Assembly (NCBI RefSeq): GCF_014203835.1
Contig: NZ_JACHJW010000001.1
Span: 558,001-622,000, forward strand
Direction: 5' to 3'
DNA: 64,000 bases
Origin: Micromonospora polyrhachis
GTDB taxonomy: Bacteria > Actinomycetota > Actinomycetes > Mycobacteriales > Micromonosporaceae
A model generated the notes under the pieces. The model worked only from the letters and a program-made list of their open reading frames with translations. It did no database searches and had not been told where the DNA came from. Below, piece after piece: positions 8,015-32,366 of this stretch (its first letter is position 1; each line of letters opens with the position of its first letter). The position numbers and the translations under genes were made by a program.

Positions 8015-8081
8015 TGCGACAAACGGGTCCGGCCCCCGGCAGAATGCAGGGCGGAACCAACCGAGAAGGCGGATCAGGATC

Positions 8082-10487
<2,406 letters not shown>

Positions 10488-10514
10488 GCCATCGGGACGG
10501 ACTACGGTCAGCGC

Positions 10515-10949: not shown

Positions 10950-12007
10950 CCCGGCATGGGTTGGCCCTGACCCGGTGCTGACTGACCCTGACCCGGCATA
11001 GGCTGGCCGGGTGGACGACCGGCCAGTGCATACCGGCCGATCCACCAGCCCGCGGCGTCGGGTCGGGTCGGGGACCGCCGTCGGGGTGGCGCGACACGTC
11101 GCCACCAGAAGCGCTGCACGAGCAGGGTCAGTACCCCGGCCATCACGATCGCGCAGACGTTGACCAGCAACTGGATGGCCGAGCCGAACGCCTCGTCGTA
11201 CACCGCGTAGGCGAGCGCGACCGCCACGTTCGCCGCAGCCGGCACCGTCGTGACGGAGATCAGGACCCCGACCAGCGGACCGGCGTTGTTCGACGTCAGC
11301 GACAGCATGCCGGCCACTCCGGCGAGCAACCCCACCACCCAGGACAGCGCGTCGGGTCGCCAGATGAAATCGGTCAGTGGCCGCTCGGCCAGCAGCATCG
11401 ACCGGTCGACCAGCCCGAAGGCGGTCAGCAACCAGGTGCTGAGCATGGTCACGGCCATCGCTACGAGGAAGCCGACCGTCAGCGTCGCCGCCGATCTGGC
11501 GACCACCGCCGAACGTCGGCGGACCACCGCCACGCAGAGCGCGGCCAGCGGCCCGAACTCGGGGCCGACCACCATCGCGCCGACGATCAGGATGGGCTGG
11601 TCGAGCAGGACCCCGATGCCCGCGAGAATGGTGGCCACCGTGATCAACAACAGGTACGTCACGGACAGGCGGGTCTGTTCCCCGGTCTTGTGCGCTATCT
11701 CGTCCCAGACCACCGCGTCCGCGCCGAGTCCCGGCGTGTCCGCCGTGGCCCGGTCCGCCTCCCGGGACAGGGTGATGTCCACCCCGTCGACCGAGACGGC
11801 TCCGGTCTCGTCGATGTCGAGCGCCTGGAGCGACCGCAGCACCTCGTCCGCGCCCTCCCGGGCGACGTCGCACAGGACCACGTCACCGGCGGGTTTCCGG
11901 GCAGCACCGGGCAGTACGGCGAGGTGGGTGACCGCCGGATCGGCGGTGAGCAGGTCGATCACCGCCGCAGCACGCTCGGTCGGCACGATGATCCGCAGGT
12001 GCAGCAT
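10913..12007 (-). CDS. DUF389 family membrane protein
   Basis: A 364-residue protein of the DUF389 family. The N-terminus is a small ACT-like soluble domain (MLHLRIIVPTERAAAVIDLL), followed by six or so hydrophobic helices beginning at LSVTYLLLITVATILAGIG; the motif ILIVGAMVVGPEFGPLAALC is typical of the family. Its function is unknown. ATG 12007 has the ribosome binding site GGAGAGGAACGGG. The C-terminal tail is a 7-residue repeat (GQPMPGQ, GQSAPGQ, GQPMPGQ) encoded by 21-bp DNA repeats and is likely disordered. The 3' end overlaps the convergent hypothetical gene by 37 nt. Confidence 0.88.
   Translation of the reverse strand: MLHLRIIVPTERAAAVIDLLTADPAVTHLAVLPGAARKPAGDVVLCDVAREGADEVLRSLQALDIDETGAVSVDGVDITLSREADRATADTPGLGADAVVWDEIAHKTGEQTRLSVTYLLLITVATILAGIGVLLDQPILIVGAMVVGPEFGPLAALCVAVVRRRSAVVARSAATLTVGFLVAMAVTMLSTWLLTAFGLVDRSMLLAERPLTDFIWRPDALSWVVGLLAGVAGMLSLTSNNAGPLVGVLISVTTVPAAANVAVALAYAVYDEAFGSAIQLLVNVCAIVMAGVLTLLVQRFWWRRVAPPRRRSPTRPDAAGWWIGRYALAGRPPGQPMPGQGQSAPGQGQPMPGQGQSSPAASRR
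10946..11008. repeat. Three 21-bp tandem repeats
   Basis: Units at 10946-10966, 10967-10987 and 10988-11008 all begin CTGACCCGG. On the minus strand they encode a Pro/Gly/Gln-rich heptapeptide repeat at the C-terminus of the DUF389 protein. The TGA stop of the convergent plus-strand gene falls inside the first unit. Confidence 0.9.
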
Positions 12008-12075
12008 CCGTTCCCGTTCCTCTCCTACTCCACCGAGCCTCCCCGGACCCCGGTCACTGTGGACCTGTGATCTGT

Positions 12076-12110
12076 GACCGGCGACCGGCGACCGGCGACC
12101 GGCGACCGGC
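12076..12110. repeat. Five tandem GACCGGC heptamers
   Basis: Five perfect copies of the 7-bp unit run head to tail, 7 bp before the stop codon of the deacetylase remnant. The unit length is not a multiple of a codon if read as protein. A second, unrelated heptamer array is found at 48221-48248. Confidence 0.9.
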
Positions 12111-12117
12111 GTGAACT

Positions 12118-12258
12118 CTACTGTGGCGCGACCGCCGACGGGTGCTCCCGTCCCTGCCCCGGGTCGGCCTCCGCCAGAAGTTCGGAGACCGTCACGAACT
12201 CGAATCCCTGGGCCCGCAGGCCATGGATCATCTGAGCCAGGCCATCGATGGCAACCGG
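12118..12258 (-). pseudogene. 3' remnant of a polysaccharide deacetylase gene
   Basis: Read on the minus strand, this stretch encodes IDGLAQMIHGLRAQGFEFVT followed by VSELLAEADPG and a TAG stop. That is the usual C-terminal end of NodB-type polysaccharide (chitooligosaccharide) deacetylases. Upstream of residue -46 the frame meets a TGA, and no deacetylase core (no metal-binding DxD or HxxxH) is found, so only the tail survives. It lies at the edge of the polysaccharide locus, which suggests a lost member of that locus or an earlier rearrangement. Identification is from pattern recognition of the tail only. Confidence 0.65.
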
Positions 12259-12481
12259 TCACCCGGGTACGGGACGGAAAACGGCGTTGGCTTCGCCAGT
12301 GCCGGACGTTTTTCCCGAGCACATTTCATAGATATTCCGCCCAATCAAGCAGGTTAACCACCTGAATACCGCTGTGTCCCGAGTATGACCAACACGACCT
12401 AAAAACACTGTTGTCCCATCCTCAATCTGATACAACCCTTTTGGTCGTTTAGTTGGCTCTAGCTCGGAGGCCCCACACCCG

Positions 12482-13615
12482 ATGACCAGCCGGATCTACC
12501 TTTCGCCTCCCGACGTCGGCCCCCTGGAAGACGCATACGTCCGCGCCGCCCTCCGCTCCGGCTGGGTCGCCCCGGTCGGCCCGGAACTCGACGCGTTCGA
12601 GCGCGAGATCGCCGACCGGGTGGGCACCGGGTACGCCGTCGGGGTGAGTTCGGGCACCGCCGCCCTGCACCTGGCCCTACTGAGCCTGGGCGTCGGGCCC
12701 GGTCAGGTGGTGGTCGTACCGACCCTGACCTTCGTGGCCACCGCCAACGCGGTCGGCTATGCCGGTGCCCGGCCGGTGCTCGTCGACGTCGACCCGGCGA
12801 CCGGCAACATCGACGTCGGACTGCTGGCCGAGTTGTTGGGTCGGCTCCGCCGCGCCGGGGAGCACATCGGTGCGGTCATGCCGGTGGACATGTTCGGCAC
12901 CTGCGCGGACTACGCCGCCCTCCTGCCCATCTGCGAGGCCGCCGGCATTCCGGTGGTGGAGGACGCGGCCCAGGCGCTCGGGGCCACCTACCAGGGGCGG
13001 CCGGCCGCCTCGTTCGGCCGGATCGCGGCACTGTCCTTCAACGGAAACAAGATCATCACCACTTCCGGCGGCGGCATGCTGGTCTCCGACGACGCGGGGC
13101 TCATCGACCGCTGCCGGCACCTGGCGACGCAGGCCCGCGAGCCGGTGGCGCACTACGAACACACCGAGGTCGGCTACAACTACCGGCTCAGCAACGTACT
13201 CGCCGCCCTCGGCCGGGCGCAGTTGCGCCGGCTGGAGGAAATGCTCGCGCGTCGCCGGTTCCTGCGCGAGCACTACGCGAAACTCTTCGCCGCCCTACCG
13301 GGCGTGCGCCTGCTCGCCGACGGTGACCCCGGCTCGAACTGCTGGCTCACCTCGATCATCGTCGACCCGGAGCAGGCCGGCTGGCGGGCCGACGAACTCG
13401 GCGACCACCTCGGCCGGCACGACATCGAGACCCGGCCGATGTGGAAACCCATGCACCAGCAGCCGGTCTTCGCCGGCACCGAGTCCGTCCTCACCGGGGC
13501 GGCGGATCTGCTGTTCGCCAACGGGCTCCAACTGCCCAGCGGTTCGGCGTTGACCGAGACGCAGATCCAGCGGGTGCTCGACACCATCGACGAGTTCCTG
13601 GCGGCCTACCGGTGA
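12482..13615 (+). CDS. DegT/DnrJ/EryC1/StrS-family aminotransferase, PglE-like
   Basis: A 377-residue PLP-dependent sugar aminotransferase. It has the SSGTAALHLAL phosphate-binding segment, VEDAAQALGA with the PLP ring-contacting Asp, and the Schiff-base lysine at about K190 in SFNGNKIITTSGGG. The C-terminal MWKPMHQQPVF block is typical of enzymes that aminate 4-keto-6-deoxy sugars, such as PglE and its relatives. It would convert a nucleotide-linked 4-keto-6-deoxy sugar to the 4-amino sugar. The ATG has a CGGAGG site upstream. It heads an eight-gene operon and its stop overlaps the next start by 4 nt. Confidence 0.92.
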   Translation: MTSRIYLSPPDVGPLEDAYVRAALRSGWVAPVGPELDAFEREIADRVGTGYAVGVSSGTAALHLALLSLGVGPGQVVVVPTLTFVATANAVGYAGARPVLVDVDPATGNIDVGLLAELLGRLRRAGEHIGAVMPVDMFGTCADYAALLPICEAAGIPVVEDAAQALGATYQGRPAASFGRIAALSFNGNKIITTSGGGMLVSDDAGLIDRCRHLATQAREPVAHYEHTEVGYNYRLSNVLAALGRAQLRRLEEMLARRRFLREHYAKLFAALPGVRLLADGDPGSNCWLTSIIVDPEQAGWRADELGDHLGRHDIETRPMWKPMHQQPVFAGTESVLTGAADLLFANGLQLPSGSALTETQIQRVLDTIDEFLAAYR

Positions 13616-14328
13616 GGCCCGCACCCCGCCGGTACGACCGGACCAAACGCGCCCTGGACATCGCCGTCGCCGCCGTACTCCTGGTGCTGACCTCCCCCCT
13701 GATGGCTGCCGTGGCGGTGGCGATCGCGGCGACCGACGGTCGGCCCGTGCTCTTCCGCCAACACCGCCCCGGGCGGCACGGCCGACTCTTCGAACTGGTC
13801 AAGTTCCGCAGCATGCGACCGGTGGACGCGGCGACCGGGCGGGCCGACGACGGCGATCGACTCACCCGGCTGGGCACCTGGCTGCGCGCCACCAGCCTGG
13901 ACGAACTACCGACGCTGTGGAACGTGCTGCGCGGCGACATGAGCCTGGTCGGGCCCCGCCCGCTGCTGGTGCGTTACCTGGACCGCTACACCCCGACCCA
14001 GGCCCGGCGGCACGAGGTCCGCCCCGGCATCACCGGACTGGCGCAGGTACGCGGCCGCAACGCGCTGAACTGGGAGGACAAGTTCAATCACGACGTGTGG
14101 TACGTCGACCACCGCAGTCTCCGGCTGGACCTGCGGATCCTCGTCGCGACCGCCGGCATCGTGCTGCGCCGCGACGGCATCTCAGCACACGGCAGCCCGA
14201 CCGCGCACGAGTTTCTCGGCAGCCCCGAACTGACCGTCCGGATCGACGCCGGCACCGGCCGCGCGGCGGCCCGGATGACCAGGGGCGTCGGCGGCACGAC
14301 ACAACAGACAGGCAGGTCGATGACATGA
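13612..14328 (+). CDS. Membrane phosphoglycosyl transferase (bacterial sugar transferase), PglC-like
   Basis: A 238-residue initiating enzyme of the small phosphoglycosyl transferase type, which moves a sugar-1-phosphate from a nucleotide sugar to undecaprenyl phosphate. One re-entrant hydrophobic segment (ALDIAVAAVLLVLTSPLMAA) is followed by LFELVKFRSMR, the SLDELPTLWNVLRGDMSLVG block carrying the catalytic Asp-Glu, and RPGITGLAQVRGRN. It lacks the large N-terminal domain of WbaP/WcaJ types, matching PglC. The GTG start overlaps the upstream stop (GTGA). The last ~40 residues (after HEFLGSPEL) are an extra tail. Confidence 0.92.
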   Translation: MRPAPRRYDRTKRALDIAVAAVLLVLTSPLMAAVAVAIAATDGRPVLFRQHRPGRHGRLFELVKFRSMRPVDAATGRADDGDRLTRLGTWLRATSLDELPTLWNVLRGDMSLVGPRPLLVRYLDRYTPTQARRHEVRPGITGLAQVRGRNALNWEDKFNHDVWYVDHRSLRLDLRILVATAGIVLRRDGISAHGSPTAHEFLGSPELTVRIDAGTGRAAARMTRGVGGTTQQTGRSMT

Positions 14329-14972
14329 GTCTGGACATCGCGATCGTGGGCTGCGGCGGACACGGCCGGGAACTGTTCGAAATCATCCGGGCGATCAACG
14401 AGGCGACGCCGACCGGACCACGGTGGCGGGTGATGGGTTTCGTCGACGACCGCCCCTCCGAGGTCAATCTCAAGCGGGTGCAACGGCTGGACGCGTCGTA
14501 CCTCGGGCCGATCGACTGGCTGCGTGAAGCCTGGCCCAGCACGCACGTCGTGATCGGCCTGGGCGACCCACGGATACGCCGTACCGTCGCGCAGCGGGTA
14601 GAGGCGTACGGGCTGCCGGTGCCGAGCCTGGTGCACCCGGCCGCGACCCTGGCACCCGACCTCGTCTCCGGTGAGGGGCTGGTGGCCTTCGCGGGCGCCC
14701 GGGTGACCACCAACGTGGCCTTCGGCCGGCACGTCCACCTGAACCAGAACGCCACCGTCGCGCACGACTGTGTGCTGGCCGACCACATCTCGGTCAACCC
14801 GCTGGCCGCCGTCTCCGGTGACTGCCGGGTGGAGAGCGGGGTACTGATCGGCACCACCGCCGCGGTGTTGCAGGGGCTGCACATCGGCGCGGACGCGACG
14901 GTGGGTGCCGGTGCCTGCGTCGTCCGGGACGTGCCCGCCGCGACCGTGGTGAAGGGGGTGCCGGCCAAGTGA
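14325..14972 (+). CDS. Sugar O/N-acyltransferase of the PglD/NeuD family
   Basis: A 215-residue protein with a Rossmann-like N-terminal domain (IAIVGCGGHGRELFEII, binding the UDP-sugar in PglD) and a left-handed beta-helix of hexapeptide repeats from about residue 105 on (VHPAATLAPDL through GADATVGAGACVVRDVPA). The HLNQNATVAHDCVLAD stretch contains the catalytic histidine region. PglD acetylates the amino group made by PglE. With the two preceding genes this gives the order aminotransferase, phosphoglycosyl transferase, acyltransferase. The ATG overlaps the upstream stop (ATGA). Confidence 0.92.
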   Translation: MSLDIAIVGCGGHGRELFEIIRAINEATPTGPRWRVMGFVDDRPSEVNLKRVQRLDASYLGPIDWLREAWPSTHVVIGLGDPRIRRTVAQRVEAYGLPVPSLVHPAATLAPDLVSGEGLVAFAGARVTTNVAFGRHVHLNQNATVAHDCVLADHISVNPLAAVSGDCRVESGVLIGTTAAVLQGLHIGADATVGAGACVVRDVPAATVVKGVPAK

Positions 14973-16243
14973 CCGGTGACCGTACCGCCGGAGGTCACCG
15001 GAAACTCCGGGTAGCCGTACTGTTGAAGACCAACGACGGGGGTCGCTGGATCCTCCCCCAGGTCGCCGAGCTGCGGCGACGTGGCCACGAGGTCGTCGTG
15101 GTCCTCCCCTCCGGGACGGGTCGGCTGACCGCCGAACTCACCGCCCGGGGTGTGCCGGTGCGTAACTCCCCCTTCGACTTCCGGCTCCGACCGACCCTCG
15201 GCACGCTGCGCGGGCTGTGGCGGCTACGCAGGCTCATCCGTGCGCTTCGGCCGGATGTCCTGAACTACCACCTGTACGCCTCGGCGCTCGCCGCCCGACT
15301 CAGCACGGTGGGCCTCGCGGTACGCCGCGCGCACATGGTCGCCGGGCCGCTCTACCTCGAATCCCCGGTGATCCGTCCGGTCGAGCGTCGACTGTGGCGG
15401 CTGGACCATGTGACCATCTGCGGCACCGACTACACGGCCCGGCTCTACGGCGAACTCGGCTGTCCGCCGGACCGCCGGCCGGTGGCCACCTGCGGGGTCG
15501 ACACCGACCACTTCGATCCGGTCCCGCCGAGCGGTACCGCCACCAGGCCGGTCCCGCCGAACGGTCCGCTCCCGCCCAGCGTTCCCCGACCTCGCGCGAC
15601 CGACCTACGGGCCAAGGCACGCGCCGAACTCGGCATCGCGCAGGACGCCTTCGTGGCCATCATGGTGGCGTACGTCTATCCACCGAAACGCCTGGCCTAC
15701 CAGGGCCGGGGCATCAAGGGCCACGACGTGCTGTTGACCGCCTGGCGCTCCTTCCAGGCCCGCACCCCCCGGGCGCACCTGCTCCTGGTCGGCGGCGGCT
15801 GGACCGAGAACGGGGAGACCCACCGGCAGGAACTGATCGACCGGTTCGGCGTACGCGACGACCCGAGTGTCACCTGGGTCGAGTCGGTACCCGACGTCCG
15901 GCCCTGCTACCAGGCCGCCGACGTGAGCATCAGCCCGTCCCTGTCGGAGGGGCACGGCGCCTCCGTCGAGGCGGGCTCGATGGGCGTCCCGAGCATCGTC
16001 AGCGACGCCGGTGGGCTGCCCGAGACCGTCGACGGCGCCTGCGGCTGGGTGGTTCCCCGGGGCGACGCGACCGCGCTGGCGGAAGCCCTGACCTCGGCCT
16101 ACCGGGAGTTCGAGGGCGGGAAGCTGGCGAACCGGGGTGACCTCGCGCGGCAGCGCGTCGTCCGGCTCTTCGACAACCGGGTGGCCGCCCAGCGGGTCGC
16201 CGACGTCATCGAGCAGATCGCGGACGGGGTACGCCGGCAATGA
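14969..16243 (+). CDS. Glycosyltransferase family 4-type protein
   Basis: A 424-residue cytoplasmic GT-B glycosyltransferase. The N-terminal domain begins KLRVAVLLKTNDGGRWILPQ, and the C-terminal nucleotide-sugar domain shows VAYVYPPKRLAYQGRGIKGH and the E-x7-E-like segment SPSLSEGHGASVEAGSMGVP. It probably adds the second or a later sugar to the lipid-linked unit. There is a proline-rich insert around residues 185-205 (VPPSGTATRPVPPNGPLPPS) between the two domains. The GTG start overlaps the upstream stop by 4 nt. Confidence 0.88.
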   Translation: MTGDRTAGGHRKLRVAVLLKTNDGGRWILPQVAELRRRGHEVVVVLPSGTGRLTAELTARGVPVRNSPFDFRLRPTLGTLRGLWRLRRLIRALRPDVLNYHLYASALAARLSTVGLAVRRAHMVAGPLYLESPVIRPVERRLWRLDHVTICGTDYTARLYGELGCPPDRRPVATCGVDTDHFDPVPPSGTATRPVPPNGPLPPSVPRPRATDLRAKARAELGIAQDAFVAIMVAYVYPPKRLAYQGRGIKGHDVLLTAWRSFQARTPRAHLLLVGGGWTENGETHRQELIDRFGVRDDPSVTWVESVPDVRPCYQAADVSISPSLSEGHGASVEAGSMGVPSIVSDAGGLPETVDGACGWVVPRGDATALAEALTSAYREFEGGKLANRGDLARQRVVRLFDNRVAAQRVADVIEQIADGVRRQ

Positions 16244-17445
16244 GGGTGGTAGTGACGGCCGAGACCCGGTTCGTCCAGACCCCCGATGGCACCGTGTGGA
16301 CCTCGACCGCACCGAGTTACCGGTTCTGGACCCGCTACCTGTCGGTCTTCGACACCGTCCGGGTGGTCGCCCGGGTACAGGCGGTCGCCGCCGTACCGGA
16401 GGGGGCCCACCAGGTCGACGGACCGGGGGTCGAGGTGTGGCCGGTGCCGTACTACCTGGGGCCCCGGCAGTACCTGTTGCGCCGGGCCGCCGTCGGCCGA
16501 GCCGTGACCGCCTCGGCCGACCCCGGGGACGCCGTCATCCTGCGGGTGCCCTCGGCCATCGGTTCACTGCTGGCCCAGACCCGGGACCGGCTGCACCTGC
16601 CGTACGCCCTGGAGGTGGTCGGCGACCCGTACGACGTGTTCGCCCCCGGCGTCGTACAGCACCCGCTGCGCCCCATGCTGCGGCACTGGTTCGCGACGAA
16701 GCTGCGCCGGCAGTGCCGCTCCGCGAGCGCCGTCGCCTACGTGACAGAGCGGTCGTTACAGGCCCGCTACCCGGCTACCCGAGTGGCACCGACCACCGCC
16801 TGCTCCAGCGTCGACCTGCCAGCGGAGGCGTTCCTGCCGCAGGCACGGTCCCCCGAACGGTGCACCCAGACCAACACCGTGATCTCGGTCGGTTCGCTGG
16901 ACCAGCTCTACAAGGGCGTCGACACGCTGATCGAAGCGCTCGCCTGGCTGATCGCGGCCGGGCTGCCGGTGCGGCTGGTGCACGTCGGCGACGGGCGGTT
17001 TCGCCACCAACTCGAACAGCTCGCCGTCCGGCTGGGCATGGCCGACCGAGTCGAGTTCACCGGCGCGCTGCCCGCCGGAGAGGCGATACGCCGGCAACTG
17101 GACGCCGCCGACCTGTTCGTCATGCCATCACGTACCGAAGGGCTGCCCCGCGCCCTCATCGAGGCCATGGCCCGCGCCCTGCCCGCCATCGGCACCACCG
17201 CCGGCGGCATCCCCGAACTCCTCCCCGCCACCGACCTCGTCCCCCCCGACGATCCCGCCACCCTCGCCGTCGCCATCTACAACATGCTCACCAACCCCCA
17301 CCGCATGGCCAGCGCCTCCATCCGGAACCTCTACCGCGCCCACGACTTCTCCGCCGACACCCTCACCCCTCGCCGAAACGCCTACTACCACGCCGTACGC
17401 GACGCCACGGAACGTCGGATGTCAGTGAGGAGTCAGGTTTGTTGA
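16240..17445 (+). CDS. Glycosyltransferase family 4-type protein
   Basis: A 401-residue GT-B glycosyltransferase. It begins MRVVVTAETRFVQTPDGTVW, a start seen in GT4 enzymes of exopolysaccharide clusters. The C-terminal half carries VISVGSLDQLYKGVDTLIEA, FTGALPAGEAI and the donor-binding FVMPSRTEGLPRALIEAMA with the conserved glutamates. No membrane segment is evident. The ATG overlaps the upstream stop (ATGA). Codon third positions are almost all C between about 17160 and 17410, a local compositional run. Confidence 0.9.
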   Translation: MRVVVTAETRFVQTPDGTVWTSTAPSYRFWTRYLSVFDTVRVVARVQAVAAVPEGAHQVDGPGVEVWPVPYYLGPRQYLLRRAAVGRAVTASADPGDAVILRVPSAIGSLLAQTRDRLHLPYALEVVGDPYDVFAPGVVQHPLRPMLRHWFATKLRRQCRSASAVAYVTERSLQARYPATRVAPTTACSSVDLPAEAFLPQARSPERCTQTNTVISVGSLDQLYKGVDTLIEALAWLIAAGLPVRLVHVGDGRFRHQLEQLAVRLGMADRVEFTGALPAGEAIRRQLDAADLFVMPSRTEGLPRALIEAMARALPAIGTTAGGIPELLPATDLVPPDDPATLAVAIYNMLTNPHRMASASIRNLYRAHDFSADTLTPRRNAYYHAVRDATERRMSVRSQVC

Positions 17446-18608
17446 GTTCGGTTCAGCGCAGGAGCACCATCGCGGCACCCCCGTCCCCACCGGCCCACCC
17501 ACATCCCGTCCGGGTCGCCCACGTCATCGGCAGCCTGGACCGGGGCGGAGCCGAGACCGTCTCCCTGGACATCTGTCGGGCGGTGCCGGCGACCGAGGTG
17601 GAGCAGACCTTCATCACGCTGGCCGGTCGGGAAGGGAGCCTGGCCGGGGAGTTCCGCGCCACCGGGGCGCTGATCCAGCAGTGTCCGCTGCGCCCGGTCA
17701 GTTCGTTCCCCGTCCGGCTGCTACGCCTGTTCCAGTCGCTACGGCCCGATGTCGTGGTCTCCCACATCAGCCTGGCCAGCGCGGTGGTGCTGCTGGCCGC
17801 TCGGATCGCCAAGATCCCGGTCCGGGTGGCCCGGCTGCAGAGCGCGGAAGATGGGCGGCGGACCACCCCGGCCCGGCGAGCCCGCCGTTGGCTGCTGCGT
17901 CACCTGCTCCGCCACACCGCGACCGACGTACTGGGGGTAACCGGGGCGGCACTCAACTTCGCCAGACCGCCGGCCGGGGACACCCGATACCGGGTGCTCT
18001 ACAACAGTGTGGCCACCGCCCGGGTGGCGGGCTGGGACCGACCGACCGCGCGCCGACACTGGAAGATCCCGGAGGACGCCCACGTCATAGTGCACATCGG
18101 GCGGGCCGCGCCGGAAAAGAACCGGCCGTTCCTGATCGACGTGCACGCCGCGGTGCGGGAACTCTGGCCGGACACCGTGCTGCTCTCCGTCGGCCCCGGC
18201 GGGACCGACGACCTCACCTCGGCCCGGCCGGAGATCGTGGACGATCCGCTGGTGCTGCTCGCCGGCGAGGCCGAGGAGATCGCCTCGGTGCTGGCCGCCG
18301 CCGACGTGCTGCTGCTGCCCTCCCGATGGGAGGGGCTACCCGGGGTGATCCTGGAGGCCCTCGCCGCCGGGGTTCCGGTCGTCGCCACGGATCTGCCCTG
18401 TCTGCGGGAACTCTCCACCCAGGTACGCGGAATCACCCTGCTGCCGTTGGCCGAGGGCCCGCTGCGCTGGGCCGACGCCACGATGTGCCAGGCCCAGACG
18501 AGTTCCCTCCGGCGGCAGGAGATCCGGCAGAGCCTGCGCTCCTCCCCGTTCCTCCTCGACCACGCGGTACGGCAGTGGCGGACCCTGTGGCAGGCTGGTC
18601 AGCGGTGA
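17439..18608 (+). CDS. Glycosyltransferase family 4-type protein
   Basis: A glycosyltransferase of about 389 residues. After a short Ser/Pro-rich leader it reads VRVAHVIGSLDRGGAETVSL, the canonical GT4 beginning, and later HIGRAAPEKNRPFLIDVHA and LLLPSRWEGLPGVILEALAA. The start is one of two adjacent TTG codons (17439 or 17442) preceded by GAGGAG; 17442 would give a 4-nt overlap like the rest of the operon. The open frame extends far upstream but lies inside the previous gene and is not used. Confidence 0.9.
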   Translation: MLSSVQRRSTIAAPPSPPAHPHPVRVAHVIGSLDRGGAETVSLDICRAVPATEVEQTFITLAGREGSLAGEFRATGALIQQCPLRPVSSFPVRLLRLFQSLRPDVVVSHISLASAVVLLAARIAKIPVRVARLQSAEDGRRTTPARRARRWLLRHLLRHTATDVLGVTGAALNFARPPAGDTRYRVLYNSVATARVAGWDRPTARRHWKIPEDAHVIVHIGRAAPEKNRPFLIDVHAAVRELWPDTVLLSVGPGGTDDLTSARPEIVDDPLVLLAGEAEEIASVLAAADVLLLPSRWEGLPGVILEALAAGVPVVATDLPCLRELSTQVRGITLLPLAEGPLRWADATMCQAQTSSLRRQEIRQSLRSSPFLLDHAVRQWRTLWQAGQR

Positions 18609-19924
18609 CCTCGGGCCGGCGCTCCGCCCTGGCCTTCCTGACTGGAAACAGCCTCGCCCAGGCCGCCAGCTACGCGTCGAGCGCAATGCTGTCCACCACA
18701 CTGCTCGGCCCACACGGCCGGGGACTGATGGTGCTGGGGGTCTCCATCGCCAGCGTCACCCCGCTACTGGCCGGCATGGGCACCGGCTCCGAACTGCGCG
18801 CACGACTACCCAACGTGGGGAACGGGGCGGCTCGGCAACGGCTGCTCTCGTCGTACACCTGGTGGTCGGTGCTGGCGGTGGGCGGGGCCGGCGGCCTGGC
18901 GGTGCTGGTCACCGCCGGTTCGGCACCCCTGATCGACCCGGGGCTCGCCGACCCTGCCTTCCTGCTCGCCGTGCTGGTGGTGGCGGCGGGCTACACCGCC
19001 CTGACGCAGTTCCCCGACGCCTGGTACGCCGCCGGACTCTTCCGGACCGGTAGCGCGTGGGCGGCGGCGGTCGCGTCCGGGGGGCTGCTCGGCATGCTCG
19101 TCGGGGCGCTGCTGGAGCGCACCGCCTGGATGCTGCTGCTGGCTCAGGGCACCGGGATGGTGGCGGTCGCCGTCCTCCAGGCGACCCGGCTGCGCGCCGC
19201 CGGTCTCCTGCCGGTACGTGGCCCCGGCCGGTGGGAGTTGTCCCAGCTGCTCCGGGCCGGCATTCGGGCACTCGGCCTCACCGTGGGGCTGGCCCTGACC
19301 CTGCGGGCCGACCGCTACCTGCTCGGTGCGGTGGCCGGTGCAGCGGCCGTCGGCGTCTACTCACTGGCCGCCACGCTGAGCGAGGCGCCCCGCGTGATCC
19401 CCACCGCACTGGGCCAACTCGTCAACCGGGACGTCGCCCTGGGCGCGGATCTCGCCCGGGTCCAACACTCCCGGCGGTTGGCGCTCCTGGCGTCGACCGC
19501 GATGAGTCTGTTGGTGGCGGCAGGCGGTTGGTGGCTGATCGTGCCCGTCTTCGGTGCCGAGTTCGCCGAGGCGCGGCCGCTGCTGCTGGTACTGCTGGTG
19601 GCCGAGATCGTCTTCGCGCCGTACGCGGTGGCGAGCCGAGGTCTGCTGGGTGGGGGCTGGATGGGCACGGCCGGCACGCTCGGCCTGCTGGGTAGCGTCG
19701 CCGCCACCACGATCTACGGGCTGGCCATCCCGGTCTGGGGCACGTACGGGGCGGCCCTGGCCTCGGTGACGGTCTACGGCGGACTGTCCTGGGCCTCGTG
19801 GGCGTTGCTCCGACACCGTCTGGATCGTTCCCCCATCCGGACCCCGAACACGGCGGGTGTGCTGGTAGCCCCTACCGGGACCGACGGCCGCCAGCCCGGA
19901 GGACGGCACCGATGGAGCACCTGA
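18605..19924 (+). CDS. Wzx-like lipid-linked oligosaccharide flippase
   Basis: A 439-residue integral membrane protein with about twelve hydrophobic helices, beginning AFLTGNSLAQAASYASSAML, which fits the MOP/PST superfamily of polysaccharide exporters. In such clusters it would move the undecaprenyl-linked repeat unit to the outer face of the membrane. Charged residues typical of Wzx pores are seen in TLRADRYLLGAVAG. The C-terminal 30 residues are hydrophilic. The GTG start overlaps the upstream stop by 4 nt, and the gene itself overlaps the next start by 13 nt. Confidence 0.85.
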   Translation: MTSGRRSALAFLTGNSLAQAASYASSAMLSTTLLGPHGRGLMVLGVSIASVTPLLAGMGTGSELRARLPNVGNGAARQRLLSSYTWWSVLAVGGAGGLAVLVTAGSAPLIDPGLADPAFLLAVLVVAAGYTALTQFPDAWYAAGLFRTGSAWAAAVASGGLLGMLVGALLERTAWMLLLAQGTGMVAVAVLQATRLRAAGLLPVRGPGRWELSQLLRAGIRALGLTVGLALTLRADRYLLGAVAGAAAVGVYSLAATLSEAPRVIPTALGQLVNRDVALGADLARVQHSRRLALLASTAMSLLVAAGGWWLIVPVFGAEFAEARPLLLVLLVAEIVFAPYAVASRGLLGGGWMGTAGTLGLLGSVAATTIYGLAIPVWGTYGAALASVTVYGGLSWASWALLRHRLDRSPIRTPNTAGVLVAPTGTDGRQPGGRHRWST

Positions 19925-21600
19925 CCAGCCCCGGTAGCAGTGCTCCGGCGGCCCGGGAGAAGGCGGTCACCCGGGAGAAGGCGGTCGCCCGGGAGAAGGC
20001 GGTCGCCCGAGAGGAAGCGGTCGCTCGGGCCCAAAGGAAACCGGTGACTCCGATCCGGGGGGAATCAGGCACTCGCCCCCGGAAGAAACGTCGCCATCGA
20101 CTCGCTGGCCTCGACGGGTCGGTGGGGTGGACCGGCAGGATCCGGGCGGTGGGGCTGGCCGTCGCCGTCGTGCTCTTCACCGTGGTCGCGGTGAAGGCCG
20201 ATGCGCTCGGCTCCTCCCCCCGGCTAGCTGCCGGTGTCGCCACCACCGTCGCTTGTCTCGGCATCGCCGTCCTGACGCTGTCCCTTCCGGGTCGGCGGAT
20301 CACCCTCGGCTCGGTCTACTTTCTGGTCTTCGCCCTGTTCCACACCGGACTGTGCCCGTACATCGCCTTCGGTCAGGTGCCGAGGCTGCTGGTCGAGGCA
20401 TCCCCGGTGAACTCCGCCTGGTATCACAGCCCGATGCTCGCGCCCGCGTTGACCGCGGTCATCCTCGGGATGCTCGCCCTCCTGATCGGCTACCTCGGGA
20501 TCGTCTCCCTCGTGGGATGGCGGCACACCATCGTCGCGCGGTCCGGCGTCACGGACCGCGCCGGCCAGCCCGGCCTGGAAATCGTCGGATTCAGCATGAT
20601 CACGACCGGGGTGCTGCTCTGGTTCGTGTTCGCCGCCACCCAGGACTCGACCTTCTTCCTGACACAGAGCTACGAGTCCTTCCGTACGGCGACCGTCGGC
20701 CAGCCGATCCCCTACCTCTACCTGCTCATCGGACTGGGCATGGGCCTACTGGGACTCAGCCAGTGGACCCGCCTGCACCGGTGGGGTCTCGTGATCTTCG
20801 CCAGCTTCGCCCTCTCCGCCGGCATCATCGGCATCCGCAACATGGTGTTCATCCCGCTGGCCGCCTGGCTGGTGGCGGCCGGTAGTCGGCGGACGATCCG
20901 ACTCCGGCCATGGCTGGTGCCGGCGCTGCTGGTGGGACTCACGGTGGGATCACTCGCCCGTCAGGTCCGACAGACCGGGCTCTCCGCGACTCAGAGAGAC
21001 AGTGTCACCATCAATCCGCTGGACGGTGTTGCGGAGCTCGGCACGACCCTGCGCACCATGGTCGTCACCCACCAGTGGCACGCCGAGTGGAACGAACCCT
21101 TCGTCGGCTGGGGCACCTACTGGGCACCGCTGGAGCGGATCGTGGTCGGCCGGCTGTTCGGGGAGACTGTCACCACCACCTCGGCGGACATCCGGGTCTT
21201 CTCAGCGACGATCCTGGACCGGGTCGGTGCGATCGGCGGCTCGCCCGCCGCAGAGGCGTACCGAGCCGCCGGGCTCGTCGGCGTGGTAACCGTGATGTTG
21301 CTGATCGGGGCACTGATCGCATGGATCGACCTCCGTCCGGCCGACTCGATCCTGGGCTCGGCAACCGGGATGATCGGCTACATCCTGCTGGTCTGGATCC
21401 GCAACGACTTCACCCCCGTCGTCGTACAGACGCTTGCCTGTTTCACCACGGTCGCCCTGGTGGCGTTGGTCAACCGGTACCGGGCGGCCTCGTCCGCGCG
21501 GGCATCCTCGCCTCCGCCAGCGACTCTCGCGGCCCGGCATCAGGTGCCGGCAGCGGCACCGTTCTCCGTCGAACGCAAGGAGATCCGCCCGCTCACCTGA
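19912..21600 (+). CDS. Wzy-like O-antigen/exopolysaccharide polymerase
   Basis: A 562-residue protein. A hydrophilic N-terminal region of about 75 residues is followed by ten or more hydrophobic helices and a large loop around residues 360-440 (RQVRQTGLSATQRD to VVGRLFGETVTTTSADIRV), the layout of Wzy polymerases, which are poorly conserved in sequence. The N-terminal region contains four copies of a REKAVx hexapeptide, encoded by 18-bp DNA repeats, predicted to form a charged helix in the cytoplasm. It is the last gene of the plus-strand operon and converges with the FkbM methyltransferase gene 93 nt away. The polymerase call rests on topology and context. Confidence 0.75.
   Translation: MEHLTSPGSSAPAAREKAVTREKAVAREKAVAREEAVARAQRKPVTPIRGESGTRPRKKRRHRLAGLDGSVGWTGRIRAVGLAVAVVLFTVVAVKADALGSSPRLAAGVATTVACLGIAVLTLSLPGRRITLGSVYFLVFALFHTGLCPYIAFGQVPRLLVEASPVNSAWYHSPMLAPALTAVILGMLALLIGYLGIVSLVGWRHTIVARSGVTDRAGQPGLEIVGFSMITTGVLLWFVFAATQDSTFFLTQSYESFRTATVGQPIPYLYLLIGLGMGLLGLSQWTRLHRWGLVIFASFALSAGIIGIRNMVFIPLAAWLVAAGSRRTIRLRPWLVPALLVGLTVGSLARQVRQTGLSATQRDSVTINPLDGVAELGTTLRTMVVTHQWHAEWNEPFVGWGTYWAPLERIVVGRLFGETVTTTSADIRVFSATILDRVGAIGGSPAAEAYRAAGLVGVVTVMLLIGALIAWIDLRPADSILGSATGMIGYILLVWIRNDFTPVVVQTLACFTTVALVALVNRYRAASSARASSPPPATLAARHQVPAAAPFSVERKEIRPLT
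19954..20025 (+). repeat. Four in-frame 18-bp repeats in the polymerase N-terminus
   Basis: Units start at 19954, 19972, 19990 and 20008 and encode REKAVT, REKAVA, REKAVA and REEAVA. The first three are nearly identical DNA, and the fourth has diverged by several bases. Copy number changes would keep the reading frame. Confidence 0.92.
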
Positions 21601-21693
21601 CGGGAGGTCCGCGCGGTCGGGGAGTGGTTGGCAGATCTCGCCGCCGGATGGACCGAGCGGTGTCCTCTCCCAGGAGTGCTGCCCAGGTGCCGC

Positions 21694-22593
21694 CTACCGG
21701 CCCGGGCGAGAGGCGTAGACGTAGTAACGGACCCAGGGCCGGCTGTCGTGTGGCCGGGTACGGACAGTGAAGCCAGCATCGCGCAGCAACGCGGTGACCG
21801 AGCCGAAGGTACGACGCCAGTCCCGCTCGGAGCCACGCCAGTCCGCTGACTCGTCATCGGAGTGCGTCGGCCTCGCCGACGCTCGCGCCAGCATCGCCCG
21901 TTCGGCGAGGAAGTCGTGACAGGAGACCGCCAGGTGGTCCACCGACTTGAGCGCGTCGAAGGACCCCTCTAGTACGGCCAACTCGGCACCTTCGATGTTC
22001 ATCTTCAGCAGATCGACGTGGTCGATGCCGAGCGATTCCATGATCTCGTCCAGGCGCCGGCCGGCGACCGCGACGCCGTTGGTCGAGTCGTTGGTCAGGC
22101 CGTTGCCGATGTGCCGGACCGGGTCGTCCTCCAGATAGACCGGTCCGGCGGTACCGACGACGGCGCACTCCACCGGCGTCACGTTGCGCAGACGGTTCAG
22201 CTCTACCGTGCGACGCAGGCACTCGAACGTCGTCGGGTGGGCCTCGATGCTCACCACCCGGCCGTGCTCCCCCACCAGCCGGGAGAAGAGCCGGACCTCG
22301 CCGCCCACCCCGGCCCCCACGTCGACGACGGTGTCCCCGGGGTGCGGCTGGTAGTCGTAGAGGAAGACGTCCTGGGCCGCCTGGTCCTGCACTTCGGGCG
22401 AGAGACCACCGAGCCTGGTGTTGACCAGCACGCCCTGCGGATACCGGTGGATCCACTGACCATCGTCGTAGCGGACCGAACACCGGGACCGGGATCGGGC
22501 CGAAAGGTACACCGAACCCAGGTGTGCCACGGCGTGCGGGGACAACCGGCCGTCCAGCGCGTGCAGCAGTCGGTTCTTGAGCGTCGTCGTCAT
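21694..22593 (-). CDS. FkbM-family methyltransferase
   Basis: A 299-residue SAM-dependent methyltransferase. The SAM-binding glycine motif is TVVDVGAGVGGEVRLFSRLV, followed by VVSIEAHPTTFECLRRTVEL and DHVDLLKMNIEGAELAVLEG, all hallmarks of the FkbM family. In polysaccharide loci these enzymes usually O-methylate a sugar. The ATG at 22593 has GAGGGG upstream. It is the last gene of the minus-strand operon and follows the LegB-like gene by 10 nt. Confidence 0.9.
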   Translation of the reverse strand: MTTTLKNRLLHALDGRLSPHAVAHLGSVYLSARSRSRCSVRYDDGQWIHRYPQGVLVNTRLGGLSPEVQDQAAQDVFLYDYQPHPGDTVVDVGAGVGGEVRLFSRLVGEHGRVVSIEAHPTTFECLRRTVELNRLRNVTPVECAVVGTAGPVYLEDDPVRHIGNGLTNDSTNGVAVAGRRLDEIMESLGIDHVDLLKMNIEGAELAVLEGSFDALKSVDHLAVSCHDFLAERAMLARASARPTHSDDESADWRGSERDWRRTFGSVTALLRDAGFTVRTRPHDSRPWVRYYVYASRPGR

Positions 22594-22603
22594 GGTCGTC
22601 CCC

Positions 22604-23662
22604 TCACACGGCCCGGTCGGCGCGGTATCGGCTCAGGTTGCCCGGATCGAGGAACCACTCGACCGTCGTCTTGAGCCCGTCGTCCAGCGACGAGAGTGGC
22701 TGCCAGCCGGTGTGTCGGCGCAACCGGGTGCTGTCGCCGAGGAGCCGTTCGACCTCGGAGTTGCTCGGACGCAACCGCTGCTCGGTCACCACGATCTCCG
22801 GCGTGACGCCGAAGATTCCGGCGATCCGCCGGACCAGCTCACCCACCGAGGTCTCCTGGCCGGTGGCGGCCTGGAACACCTGGCCGAGGACGGCCTCGGC
22901 CGGGGCGGTGCCAGCGGCGATGAAGGCCGCCGCCGTATCCGCCACGAAGAGCAGGTCCCGGGTGGGTTTGGTGGCCCCCAACTCGATCCGGCCGGTGCCA
23001 GCGGCGAGCTGACTGATGATCGTGGGGATCACCGCCCGGGTCGACTGCCGGGGTCCGTAGGTGTTGAACGGGCGCAGGGTGACCACCGGCAGCCCGAAGC
23101 TCAGGTGGTAGCTCTCGGCGAGCTTGTCCGCGCCGATCTTGGAAGCCGAGTACGGCGACTGTCCGCGCAGCCGGTGCGCCTCCGTCATCGGTACGGTGAC
23201 GGCGGTGCCATAGACCTCGCTGGTGGAGGTGACCACGACGCGCGGTGTGCCCACCGTCCGGGCGCTCTCCAGCACGTTGAGGGTGCCGACGACGTTGGTC
23301 TCCACGTACGACTGTGGCGCCAGGTACGAGTACGGAATGCCGACCAGCGCGGCCAGGTGATAGACCACGGAGGCGTCCTCGACGAGTCGCTGGACCGTCC
23401 CCCGGTCCCGGATGTCACCGGAGTGCACGTCGATGGCGGCGAGCTGGTCGGCGGAGAAGGTGTCCAGCCAACCGTGTGTGCCGCGTCCGGTGTAGTGGAC
23501 CAGTGCCTTGACCCGGTGCCCCCGGGCGAGGAGCGCCTCGACCAGGTGGGATCCGATGAAGCCCCCGGCCCCGGTCACCGCCACCACGTCCGGCTTCACC
23601 GGTGCGTCTCCACCGACCATCGCCGCGCCGATCCGCAGCTCACTCCTCGCGCCGTTGTTCAT
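22604..23662 (-). CDS. NAD-dependent nucleotide-sugar 4,6-dehydratase, LegB-like
   Basis: An extended SDR of about 352 residues with TGAGGFIGSHLVEALLARGH for NAD binding, the catalytic TSTSEVYGTA and YSASK motifs, and the segments PYSYLAPQSYVETNVVGTLN and RPFNTYGPRQSTRAVIPTII, which match the LegB group (dehydratases of the legionaminic acid and bacillosamine pathways) better than RmlB or Gmd. It would produce a 4-keto-6-deoxy amino sugar, the substrate needed by the PglE-like aminotransferase of the facing operon. The ATG at 23662 has AGAGGACGAG upstream; an earlier ATG (23677) has no ribosome binding site. Confidence 0.87.
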   Translation of the reverse strand: MNNGARSELRIGAAMVGGDAPVKPDVVAVTGAGGFIGSHLVEALLARGHRVKALVHYTGRGTHGWLDTFSADQLAAIDVHSGDIRDRGTVQRLVEDASVVYHLAALVGIPYSYLAPQSYVETNVVGTLNVLESARTVGTPRVVVTSTSEVYGTAVTVPMTEAHRLRGQSPYSASKIGADKLAESYHLSFGLPVVTLRPFNTYGPRQSTRAVIPTIISQLAAGTGRIELGATKPTRDLLFVADTAAAFIAAGTAPAEAVLGQVFQAATGQETSVGELVRRIAGIFGVTPEIVVTEQRLRPSNSEVERLLGDSTRLRRHTGWQPLSSLDDGLKTTVEWFLDPGNLSRYRADRAV

Positions 23663-23680
23663 CTCGTCCTCTCTCATCGG

Positions 23681-24679
23681 TCACGTGCGGGTGTCTCGCG
23701 GTGCCCGGGACGATCCGTCGGGCTGTCCCGGCTGGGGCGGTCTCCGTCCCGGACCGGGAGTCGGGCGCGGGCTCGGTGCGCCAGGCCGGTCGGTCCGGAT
23801 GTCGCCCCCGGACCAGAGCGCCTTCACCGAGTCCGCGAGGTCGTGGGCGGGGACCCAGCCGAGCGCCGAGGCGGCCCGCCGGATGTCGCCGCACATCCAG
23901 TCCACCGCCGCCGAACGCTCCGGCGCACGACCGTCCTCCCGGATCTCGCCGGTGAATCCGGCCGTCTCGGCGAGCAGTCGTACCGCCGTCCGGGCGGGGA
24001 CGGCCCGACCACTGGCGATGTTGTAGATCCGGTCGGGCACCGTGGGAACGGCGAGCACGGCGGCCACCGCGCTCGCCACGTCCCGGGCGTCGACGAAGTC
24101 CCGGTACGCGCCGAGCGCTCCCATCGAGATGTACGCCGTCTGCTGGCTCGTTGCCCGGCGCAGTAGGTTCACCGCCCGGCCGAGCACGTTCGCCTCGGGC
24201 AGCCCCGGGCCGATCGGGTTGAACACCCGCAGCACCACGCCGTCGACGCGACCGGCGCCGGTGGCGAGTTCGAGCAGCCGGGTGGCGGCGAGCTGGCTCA
24301 CGCCGTACTCCCCGACCGGTATCGCCGGGTCGTGTTCGTTGACGGCGTGGCCGGGCGGCACCGGGCCGTACTCGGCCGCCGAGCCGAGCCGGACGAGCCG
24401 GGCGGCCGGCGCGTGTGCCGCGACCGCGTCGACGAGCCGGGCGGTCACGAGGGTGTTGGCCCGGATCAGGTCCGCGCCGCCGCCGGTCACGCCGCCGGCG
24501 CAGTTGACCACCGCGTCCGGGCGTACGGTGCACAGCAGGCTGGCCAGTTCGTCGTCCGTACAGTGGGTCAGGTCGCACTCGGCGCGGGTCGGGCAGGTGA
24601 GTTCGACCTCCGGGGCAAGGGCCCGGCGTACGTGTCCGCCGAGGAAGCCGTACGCCCCGAACAAGAGCACCCTGGTCAT
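23681..24679 (-). CDS. NAD-dependent epimerase/dehydratase (extended SDR)
   Basis: A 332-residue extended SDR with a short-loop Rossmann motif ([18 protein letters not shown]), an [10 protein letters not shown] segment and [11 protein letters not shown]. The active site tyrosine lies in [10 protein letters not shown], so the usual YxxxK reads YxxxQ, an unusual replacement of the catalytic lysine. [20 protein letters not shown] resembles GDP-6-deoxy-4-keto sugar reductases. The last 40 residues are Pro/Arg-rich and beyond the fold. The start ATG overlaps the nucleotidyltransferase stop by 4 nt. It probably modifies a nucleotide sugar for the surface polymer. Confidence 0.85.
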
Positions 24680-25404
24680 ACCGGCTCCGGGATCGGCGTG
24701 GGCAGCAGGATCGGCTTGAGCGACTCGAACCGGCGGTTCGCCTCGTCGTAGTCCTCGGGACGGCCGATGTCCAGCCAGTAGCCGTCGAAGTCGTAGCTGG
24801 CCGGCGGGTTTCCCTGGTCGAGTAGGTCGAGCACCAGGTGGTCGAAGCCGAACACCAACCCCTCCGGGTAGGCGGCGACGGTCTTCGCGGAGAGCCCGTA
24901 GACCCCCATGCTGACCCGGTAGTCGAGCGTGGGCTTCTCCTGGAACTCGACGATCCGCTCGTTCTCGACCGCCAACACCCCAAAATCGATCTTCACGTTG
25001 CGCTGAAAGGTGGCCACTGTCATCGGGGCACCGGATTCGGCGTGGGTGTGGAGCAGGTCGGCGTAGTTCAGGTCGGTGAGAATGTCGCCGTTCATCACGA
25101 GGAAGTGCTCGGGCAACCGGTCCCGCATTCCGAAGAGCGGGCCGATGGTCGACAGCGGTACGTGCTCCTCCAGGTAGTCGACGCGCAGTCCGAACCGCGC
25201 GCCGTCACCGACGAAGGCCCGGATCAGCGAGCCCAGGTGGTTGATGGCCAGCGTGACGTGGGTGAACCCATGGGCTGCCAACTGGTGCAGGACGATCTCC
25301 AGGATCGCGTAGCTGTCCCCGATGGGCACCAACGGTTTCGGCAGCGTGCTGGTGTACGGACGCAGCCGTACCCCCTTGCCGCCGGCCATGATGACCACGT
25401 GCAT
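24676..25404 (-). CDS. Sugar-1-phosphate nucleotidyltransferase
   Basis: A 242-residue NTP-transferase with the signature [20 protein letters not shown], the metal-binding [15 protein letters not shown] and the C-terminal [14 protein letters not shown]. It activates a sugar 1-phosphate to an NDP-sugar. The sequence looks closest to guanylyl- or uridylyltransferases of the HddC/WcbM/RmlA type; the nucleotide cannot be settled by eye. It lacks the left-handed beta-helix of GlmU. ATG 25404 has a strong AGGAGGACGAG site. It is the second gene of the minus-strand operon. Confidence 0.88.
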
Positions 25405-25491: not shown

Positions 25492-26451
25492 TCACCGGGC
25501 CGGTGTGCTCTCCTGCGCCGCGAGGTGGGCTTCCAGCCACCGCACGGTGGCCCGCAGCCCGTCGGTCAGGGACGCGGCCTTCACCCCGGGGAAGAGTTCG
25601 GACAGCAGTTGGTTGTCGGCTGCGGAGTGCCGGATGTCGCCGGCGCGGGGCGGGGTGTTCCGCCGGTCGATGGGGCGCTCCAGGATCTGCTCCAGCTCTG
25701 CCACCACGGTGTGCAGGGTGGTGCGGGTGCCGAAGGCCAGGTTCACCGGTTGCGGGTGCTGCACCCGGCGACGTAGACCGTCCAGCAGCACCTCGCACAC
25801 CGTCTCCACGTAGGTGAAGTCGCGGGTCTGCCGCCCGTCGCCGTGGAAGGCGACCGGTTCTCCCCGGAGCGCCGCGTACACGAACTTCGGGATGACCGCG
25901 GCGTACGGGTGGTCGTGCCGCTGCCCCGGGCCGTACACGTTGAAGAACCGGAACGCGAGGGTGGGCAGCCCGTACGACGACTGGTAGGCCAGGGCGTACG
26001 CCTCGGTGGCCAGCTTACTGGCGGCGTACGGGCTCATCGGCCGGGTCCAGGCCAGCTCGTCCTTGGGCAGGGCGGGGTTGGCGCCGTACACCGAGGACGA
26101 CGACGCGACCACGACGTGGTCGAGCCGGTGGCGACGGGCGGCCTCCAGCACGCAGAGCGTGCCGGTGGCATTGGCCTGGTGGAACGCGACCGGCTCCCGG
26201 ATGGACCGGGGCACGCTGGGCAGCGCGGCGAGGTGCACCACGGCGTCCCGCCCGGCCATTGCCCGGTCCAGCGCGTCGTCGTCGAGGATGGAGCCGGTCA
26301 CGACGTCGACGTCGAGGCCGGTCAGGTTGGCAATGCTGCCGGTGGACAGGTCGTCGATGACCCGTACGTCGGTGATCGACGGGTCTTCCAGGGCGGCCCG
26401 GGTCAGATTGGCACCGATGAACCCGGCGCCGCCGGTGACCAACAGTCGCAT
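25492..26451 (-). CDS. NAD-dependent epimerase/dehydratase, GalE-like
   Basis: A 319-residue extended SDR. It starts MRLLVTGGAGFIGANLTRAA, has VIDDLSTGSIANL for cofactor contact, VVASSSSVYGANP and the catalytic YAASKLATEAYAL, and RFFNVYGPGQRHDHPYAAVI. This fits UDP-hexose 4-epimerases and related enzymes (GalE/WbpP group). It would supply an epimerised NDP-sugar for the polysaccharide. It heads the minus-strand operon, with 87 nt before the nucleotidyltransferase start, and the ribosome binding site is AAGGGG. Confidence 0.9.
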   Translation of the reverse strand: MRLLVTGGAGFIGANLTRAALEDPSITDVRVIDDLSTGSIANLTGLDVDVVTGSILDDDALDRAMAGRDAVVHLAALPSVPRSIREPVAFHQANATGTLCVLEAARRHRLDHVVVASSSSVYGANPALPKDELAWTRPMSPYAASKLATEAYALAYQSSYGLPTLAFRFFNVYGPGQRHDHPYAAVIPKFVYAALRGEPVAFHGDGRQTRDFTYVETVCEVLLDGLRRRVQHPQPVNLAFGTRTTLHTVVAELEQILERPIDRRNTPPRAGDIRHSAADNQLLSELFPGVKAASLTDGLRATVRWLEAHLAAQESTPAR

Positions 26452-32220: not shown

Positions 32221-32366
32221 CGACAGCCTCCTACAGCGGGTTGGTCGCCCTCGTTCGTGGTGCGGGGCTCGTTGATCGATAATGCCCCAGCTCGCCGTTG
32301 CCCGAACCTGGATCGACGGACACACCGGTCGGCCGGGTGGCTACCCGGTGCGTAGAATTCGCGGGC

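Follow-up and report, generated by a model that had tools for sequence, protein, structure and literature searches.

Which enzyme opens the pathway to the sugar that primes a polysaccharide in Micromonospora polyrhachis? The question arises from a stretch of 64,000 nucleotides (the window: bases 558001-622000 of a single-contig genome of 7.15 Mb, completeness 99.84%, G000 in our set), in which two gene sets converge, the plus-strand one reaching 21600 and the minus-strand one 21694. The former opens with a sugar aminotransferase (AT), a phosphoglycosyl transferase (PGT) and an acetyltransferase (AcT), and the latter carries LegB, a 4,6-dehydratase of nucleoside diphosphate (NDP)-linked N-acetylhexosamine (HexNAc), beside a sugar nucleotidyltransferase (NTase). 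An earlier, sequence-only reading had joined these five genes into one bacillosamine-type pathway; all five proved intact, with strong family scores and at or near the positions it gave, and the convergence of the two sets was likewise borne out. From family membership, tree placement and co-occurrence among relatives, AT, PGT and AcT probably form a bacillosamine-type priming module. That LegB, from a separate cassette, supplies this module with its 4-keto sugar for a Wzx/Wzy-type polysaccharide is a reading for and against which the sequence evidence seems evenly balanced.

In the proposed route, LegB, encoded with NTase and a short-chain dehydrogenase/reductase (SDR1), would take the place of the usual dehydratase PglF and supply NDP-4-keto-6-deoxy-HexNAc, which AT would aminate at C4 and AcT would acetylate on the new amine. 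PGT would then move the sugar phosphate onto polyprenyl phosphate, glycosyltransferases of family GT4 would lengthen the glycan on its lipid carrier, for Wzx to export and Wzy to polymerise into a surface polysaccharide. We infer that LegB hands its product to AT, that the linkage is to uridine diphosphate (UDP), that the product is acetylated and that the polymer lies at the surface. The genes are as follows, with profile or structure scores in brackets.

12482-13615, plus: PglE-clade sugar aminotransferase, AT (DegT/DnrJ 328 bits; TIGR04181; group of PglE structure 1o61; YEH motif)
13612-14328, plus: small monotopic, PglC-like phosphoglycosyl transferase, PGT (Bac_transf 211 bits; PglC 193 bits)
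14325-14972, plus: PglD/NeuD-type sugar acetyltransferase, AcT (TIGR03570 187.5 bits, cut-off 160.8; best structure 4m98)
14969-16243, plus: GT4 glycosyltransferase GTa (Glyco_trans_1_4 86.5 bits)
16240-17445, plus: GT4 glycosyltransferase GTb (Glyco_trans_1_4 106.6 bits)
17442-18608, plus: GT4 glycosyltransferase GTc (Glyco_trans_1_4 76.8 bits)
18605-19924, plus: Wzx-like flippase (Polysacc_synt 21.1 bits, below the cut-off of 28.2; homologues in related loci)
19921-21600, plus: Wzy-like polymerase (PF14296 40.9 bits, cut-off 26.6)
21694-22593, minus: FkbM-family methyltransferase (TIGR01444 86.5 bits, over cut-off)
22604-23677, minus: LegB-type NDP-HexNAc 4,6-dehydratase (TIGR04180 418 bits, cut-off 475; TSTSEVYG, YSASK)
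23681-24679, minus: SDR1, like GDP-6-deoxy-mannose reductase, with Gln for the catalytic Lys (6x3b 76 bits; YxxxQ)
24676-25404, minus: sugar-1-phosphate nucleotidyltransferase, NTase (NTP_transferase 122.5 bits)
25492-26451, minus: SDR2, epimerase-like (Epimerase 195 bits; SSSSVYG where LegB has STSEVYG)

The eight plus-strand genes overlap by four bases at each junction, and the minus set, read from SDR2 through NTase, SDR1 and LegB to FkbM, extends to 26451. Besides the five genes named earlier, the locus thus holds three GT4s, Wzx-like and Wzy genes, SDR1, SDR2 and FkbM. From the gene spacing, each set is probably transcribed as a single unit. The call of a Wzx-like protein combines a Pfam match below threshold with its position in related loci, where homologues with 42-68% identity are found (L033, L083, L087, L093 and L204).

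The probable priming module

The closest profile to AT was TIGR04181, of the LegC family (350 bits, cut-off 420), followed by PseC (248), both below cut-off. Its best solved structures, at 245 bits, were 1o61 and 4ztc, which we take to be Campylobacter jejuni PglE, with a perosamine synthase close behind at 237 bits. Because this synthase lay only some 7 bits away, a tree was built, and it is the tree, together with a short motif, that carries the assignment of AT as PglE-type. In the tree (83 rows, quick search, support by the Shimodaira-Hasegawa-like approximate likelihood-ratio test, SH-aLRT, only), 34 rows of aminotransferases from the Micromonosporaceae family (support 98) join PglE (99), and 31 of the 36 aminotransferases from loci with the synthase NeuB fall in a separate group of 37 rows (92). 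Three of the other five form a small near-basal group, one lies by perosamine synthase and one by 7b0m, which itself adjoins the PglE group; PglE sits on a long branch (1.57), and its exact placement is less certain. The motif, YEH before GYNYR, occurs in the window AT, in that of the relative G095, in 27 of 29 family orthologues with at least 60% identity and in two of three at 50-59%; it was found in none of the 36 NeuB-linked, seven other non-family and three distant family aminotransferases. A second PglE-like motif, RP(L/M)WK(P/A)MH, was discarded as uninformative: the window AT has it and none of 29 close family orthologues do.

Read from a possible GTG start at 13612, PGT has 238 amino acids. 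Its best structure is PglC (8g1n/8e37), with a near whole-length match of 193 bits against 129 for WbaP, and 96 of 193 aligned residues (50%) are identical to Campylobacter PglC. A long PGT of the galactose or glucose type was rejected on the size of the frame and the order of these scores. The translation also displays the DE dyad and PRP motif that mark small monotopic PGTs (PMC10653937, cited here, like the other papers, from the available portions of its text), enzymes that take UDP-sugars (PMC10653937, PMC12550135). The 50% identity is by itself no proof of the sugar, since Bacillus subtilis EpsL is 58-60% identical to PglCs and still 41% identical to an enzyme for UDP-N-acetylfucosamine (PMC10653937). 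AcT passes TIGR03570 (NeuD/PglB/VioB), scored on a longer frame that contains it, and its best structure, 4m98, is a pilin glycosylation protein. The tree, the YEH motif, the PglC match and this profile together uphold the trio as PglE-, PglC- and PglD-like. In a pairwise sketch against the relative G057, the ratio of nonsynonymous to synonymous substitution rates is 0.25-0.28 for AT, PGT and AcT and 0.24 for the neighbouring Tex gene, and therefore the module is not decaying.

Two more Bac_transf genes of G000 (contig C1, 3141175 and 4662011) have frames of 563 and 499 amino acids and are perhaps long-type PGTs. In G095 a second PGT-AcT pair (L206, 2068-3400) lies across Tex from the AT-PGT pair, at a distance of about 12 kb.

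AT was taken to be present in 64 of 150 genomes of the family, our own included: 66 matched at 1e-60, and two (best 223 and 243 bits) were dropped, leaving those with at least 375 bits. Whatever LegB does, genes for bacillosamine-type priming are therefore ordinary in the Micromonosporaceae. The idea that such a sugar would be out of the ordinary for an actinomycete agrees with the phylum sample, where AT matched in 13 of 396 genomes at 1e-90 and LegB in 21 at 1e-100, with both in G000 only, and fails for the family. A weak literature search turned up no paper on bacillosamine in actinobacteria, from which we do not claim that there is none.

The dehydratase step

In the family, AT goes with a PglF-type dehydratase. 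With a protein from a relative's locus (L084) as query and a threshold of 1e-50, PglF-type matches, a few of them partial, were found in 72 of the 150 genomes: 61 have both genes, three AT only, 11 PglF only and 75 neither (p 1e-26 by Fisher's test, uncorrected for kinship). By genus, counted by eye, the same four classes number 11, 2, 7 and 24 (p 2e-4). The distance between AT and PglF is at most 30 kb in 50 of the 64 AT genomes, and at most 10 kb in 32 of them. To judge from these similarity searches, PglF and not LegB is the usual partner of AT across the family.

The window organism is an exception. G000 gave no PglF-type match at 1e-50 and none to PF02719 at 1e-20 (best 69.5 bits), and is alone among the 64 AT genomes in that no dehydratase of the PglF, FnlA or PseB type was found. 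The other two with AT and no PglF match, G021 and G088 (86% complete), carry an FnlA-like PF02719 enzyme at 410-419 bits (cut-off 730). Of the SDRs in the locus, LegB scores 418 bits with TIGR04180 against 164.5 with RmlB and 86 with Gmd, which dismisses the latter two as its identity, one of the ways in which the first reading could have failed. SDR2 was rejected as a hidden dehydratase on its SSSSVYG, where LegB reads STSEVYG, presumably a dehydratase motif; its best models are RmlB (155 bits) and TviC (149.5), all far under cut-off. Exclusion and layout thus leave LegB as the only candidate found for the first step of the priming pathway.

A second genome repeats the arrangement. In a tree of 91 LegB rows (quick search, SH-aLRT only), the window protein, that of Micromonospora noduli, its nearest named relative, and those of G115 and G095 cluster with support 100; the cluster has a long stem (0.68) and is nested in a clade of 25 rows (99) made up of 24 actinobacterial or Micromonosporaceae rows and one Chloroflexi assembly, with no NeuB-linked row. 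Four alignment columns set the four proteins apart, with no clear meaning. In M. noduli a set of DUF389, AT, PGT, a glycosyltransferase, AcT, three glycosyltransferases, Wzy and Wzx converges on one of SDR1, SDR2, LegB, NTase and an M14 peptidase; compared with the window there is an extra glycosyltransferase, Wzy is turned round, SDR2 has moved and FkbM has no match. No PglF match was found there either, a negative of less weight in a draft genome lacking a completeness figure. All that PF02719 matches there at 1e-20 is a true PseB (496.5 bits, cut-off 407.75), which adjoins an aminotransferase with PseC as best model (370 bits, cut-off 423.5). PglF has no match in two of the four genomes of the window's LegB clade, against two of the 61 remaining AT genomes (p 0.017), a comparison of very few cases from a shared clade, in which M. 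noduli was found through LegB, outside the random sample. If LegB does stand in for PglF, this would be a natural swap of the first bacillosamine enzyme by another SDR subfamily, with a known member of different nucleotide preference, and the two genomes make it directly testable.

The LegB unit and rival readings of the pathway

Several observations weigh against a supply from LegB to AT. In the family, LegB (above 410 bits in 11 of 150 genomes, with a clear gap to the next score, 224) is not associated with AT, occurring in six of 64 AT genomes and five of 86 others (p 0.53). LegB lies beside NTase in 11 of 11 family loci, the window included, which suggests a dedicated, perhaps GDP-linked, nucleotide sugar. 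LegB, NTase and SDR1 occur together at all ten other family loci, with AT in the same stretch at just one (G095; the contig of L032 ends nearby and L029 spans only 8.7 kb). At relatives of the window's locus type, such as G057 and G047, SDR1 and NTase are accompanied by a nucleotide-sugar dehydrogenase (TIGR03026 294 bits in the G044 copy, cut-off 190) and, in LegB's place, an SDR most like UDP-glucuronate decarboxylase (UXS) among solved structures (138 bits); swaps of this kind would be expected of a LegB that works on a repeat-unit sugar instead of the primer. G095 and G115, of the window's own LegB clade, also have PglF (in G115 the LegB contig ends before AT). Finally, C. jejuni LegB uses GDP-N-acetylglucosamine (GDP-GlcNAc), and in a UDP-linked pathway in B. 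subtilis, pglF gave full rescue and Campylobacter legB none or partial (PMC7439481). The nucleotide on the LegB product, UDP or GDP, decides whether the priming pathway closes.

The wider distribution fits a separately conserved and exchangeable sugar cassette, as far as gene neighbourhoods tell, for which we know of no name. For named genomes, the comparison took in the best 80 of 566 LegB loci; several stretches are short, so that the counts are lower bounds. At least 18 have the trio with SDR1, at least 45 have NeuB, nine an aminotransferase without NeuB and eight neither. The trio stands without AT nearby in 17 of the 80 (L172 has a weak match, 29%, 7 kb away), and M. noduli, where AT is further off, is the eighteenth. 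NTase is matched in at least 70 of the 80, including at least 39 of the 45 with NeuB, and is 56-79% identical across loci of the LegB clade. Six further trios (L026, L029, L030, L121, L171 and L172) fall outside the 25-row clade. Two loci were profiled, one in a family genome (L024) and one in a Streptomyces (L106), and in both the trio is accompanied by PelF (167 and 178 bits, against a cut-off of 100), by a Spherulin4 protein and, weakly matched, an Agd3-like one; of 18 further loci of this kind, 14-18 have homologues of these genes (1e-15). The unit thus appears common to Pel-like and Wzx/Wzy-type loci. Beyond L024 and L106, such homologues recur in the related loci L103-L116, L120 and L133, from Streptomyces, Kitasatospora and others; SDR1 and/or NTase accompany a UXS-like SDR at L062, L063, L071, L075, L082, L087 and L205, with the dehydrogenase where checked.

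SDR1 itself has changed at the window's locus type. Its best structure is 6x3b, a GDP-6-deoxy-mannose reductase (76 bits), and a Lys-bearing homologue is likewise closest to such a reductase. Leaving aside matches that were short or below 70 bits and positions where LegB, SDR2 or AT matched better, the alignment shows the Lys of the catalytic YxxxK intact in 25 of 25 trios elsewhere and replaced in all ten at this locus type by Gln (six) or His (four): the window, L032 (whose contig ends before AT), L033, L062, L063, L075, L082, L083, L087 and L102. A normal reductase step by SDR1 on the LegB product is doubtful at the window's locus, and competition for that product by a canonical reductase may have ended. 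Loci without LegB show the change as well, which is hence not tied to LegB, a further point against the supply to AT. Bacillus cereus makes UDP-N-acetylquinovosamine with Pdeg and Preq, a 4,6-dehydratase and a 4-ketoreductase acting on UDP-GlcNAc; SDR1, which has lost the Lys in the window, and its Lys-bearing homologue both resemble the reductases of GDP-6-deoxy-sugars.

These data leave room for the two operons to be two pathways, an explanation that we hold somewhat short of even, in which LegB and NTase, with SDR1 or SDR2, would make an NDP-6-deoxy-amino sugar for the repeat unit, probably GDP-linked, and AT, PGT and AcT would depend on an unrecognised dehydratase or PGT would use another UDP-sugar. 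The trios without AT, the swaps at LegB's place, the independence of LegB and AT and the GDP-GlcNAc preference of the Campylobacter enzyme all speak for it. It has to accommodate a one-contig, nearly complete genome with no other PF02719 HexNAc dehydratase, a priming trio still under purifying selection and an SDR1 whose lost Lys may leave the LegB unit unable to finish its own product. One pathway across both operons, as first proposed, survives in the bacillosamine-type trio and in LegB by exclusion, and is weakened by the LegB-NTase-SDR1 set being a unit of its own that does not track AT. NTase, which had been counted as a required step, is unneeded when the route starts from UDP-GlcNAc, made by GlmU, and lies outside the AT-PGT-AcT chain if the route is UDP-linked. 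Its own scores do not separate the nucleotides: 120 bits for the Rv3264c-type GDP-mannose model (cut-off 440) and 102 for MurU, with UDP-glucose and GDP-mannose pyrophosphorylases at 97.5 and 88.6 bits among structures. A phosphoglucomutase/phosphomannomutase family gene at 30574-32325, about 5 kb from NTase, could supply a sugar-1-phosphate.

An improbable variant keeps a single chain on GDP: NTase would make GDP-glucosamine or GDP-GlcNAc, and LegB, AT and AcT would turn it into GDP-linked diacetylbacillosamine for a glycosyltransferase or, unusually, for PGT. The near-constant company of NTase at family and named-genome LegB loci and the GDP route to legionaminate in C. jejuni (PMC7725333, PMC7439481) fit such a chain; a PGT 50% identical to a PglC that uses UDP-diacetylbacillosamine (UDP-diNAcBac) and an AT in the PglE group, outside the main NeuB-linked one, argue against it. 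So does the presence of NTase at loci with the nucleotide-sugar dehydrogenase and UXS-like SDR, families acting mostly on UDP-sugars. As for legionaminic acid itself, which the LegB and LegC-family profiles might evoke, it is hardly credible here and was rejected for the lack of a NeuB match (PF03102) in G000 at 0.001, together with the placement of AT outside the main NeuB-linked group and of LegB in a clade without NeuB-linked rows. LegB completing the priming module remains about an even bet. How it might have come about can be sketched only tentatively, in a history that we regard as rather unlikely: in the window organism and M. noduli, LegB from a GDP-sugar cassette would have replaced PglF, either by switching to UDP-GlcNAc or by giving GDP-linked bacillosamine that a PglC-like enzyme accepts, with loss of the SDR1 Lys freeing the 4-keto intermediate.

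Known systems and neighbouring genes

The closest Gram-positive parallel is the EpsC-EpsN-EpsM-EpsL system of B. subtilis, where, as in the window, an aminotransferase, an acetyltransferase and a PglC-like small PGT share a polysaccharide operon, and EpsL primes an exopolysaccharide with UDP-diNAcBac (PMC10653937). B. subtilis has EpsC as counterpart of PglF (54% similarity, PMC10653937), whereas LegB is the sole candidate in the window genome. Likewise, the PglE-group AT, PglD-family AcT and PglC-like PGT recall Campylobacter PglF-PglE-PglD-PglC, unlike which the window lacks PglF and has Wzx/Wzy-route genes and GT4s alongside; we do not class the set as a PglFEDC system, PglF having been sought and not found, although it could well function in that manner. 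The pairing of LegB with a sugar nucleotidyltransferase is shared with the Campylobacter GDP route to CMP-legionaminate (PMC7439481, PMC7725333), from which the window differs in having no NeuB in its genome and an AT outside the main NeuB-linked group. The unit in Pel-like operons of Streptomyces shares the LegB clade with the window (SH-aLRT 99); in the window, however, the trio stands beside Wzx/Wzy genes with Gln for Lys in SDR1, and its glycosyltransferases all score below the PelF cut-off (34 bits at best, against 100).

The polysaccharide genes are flanked by Tex and DUF389 genes (7938-12322) and by a gene for an M14 carboxypeptidase with an InhA-like MAM domain (26610-29888). Among 32 AT loci of relatives, which vary in gene content, 15 have Tex or DUF389 close to AT.

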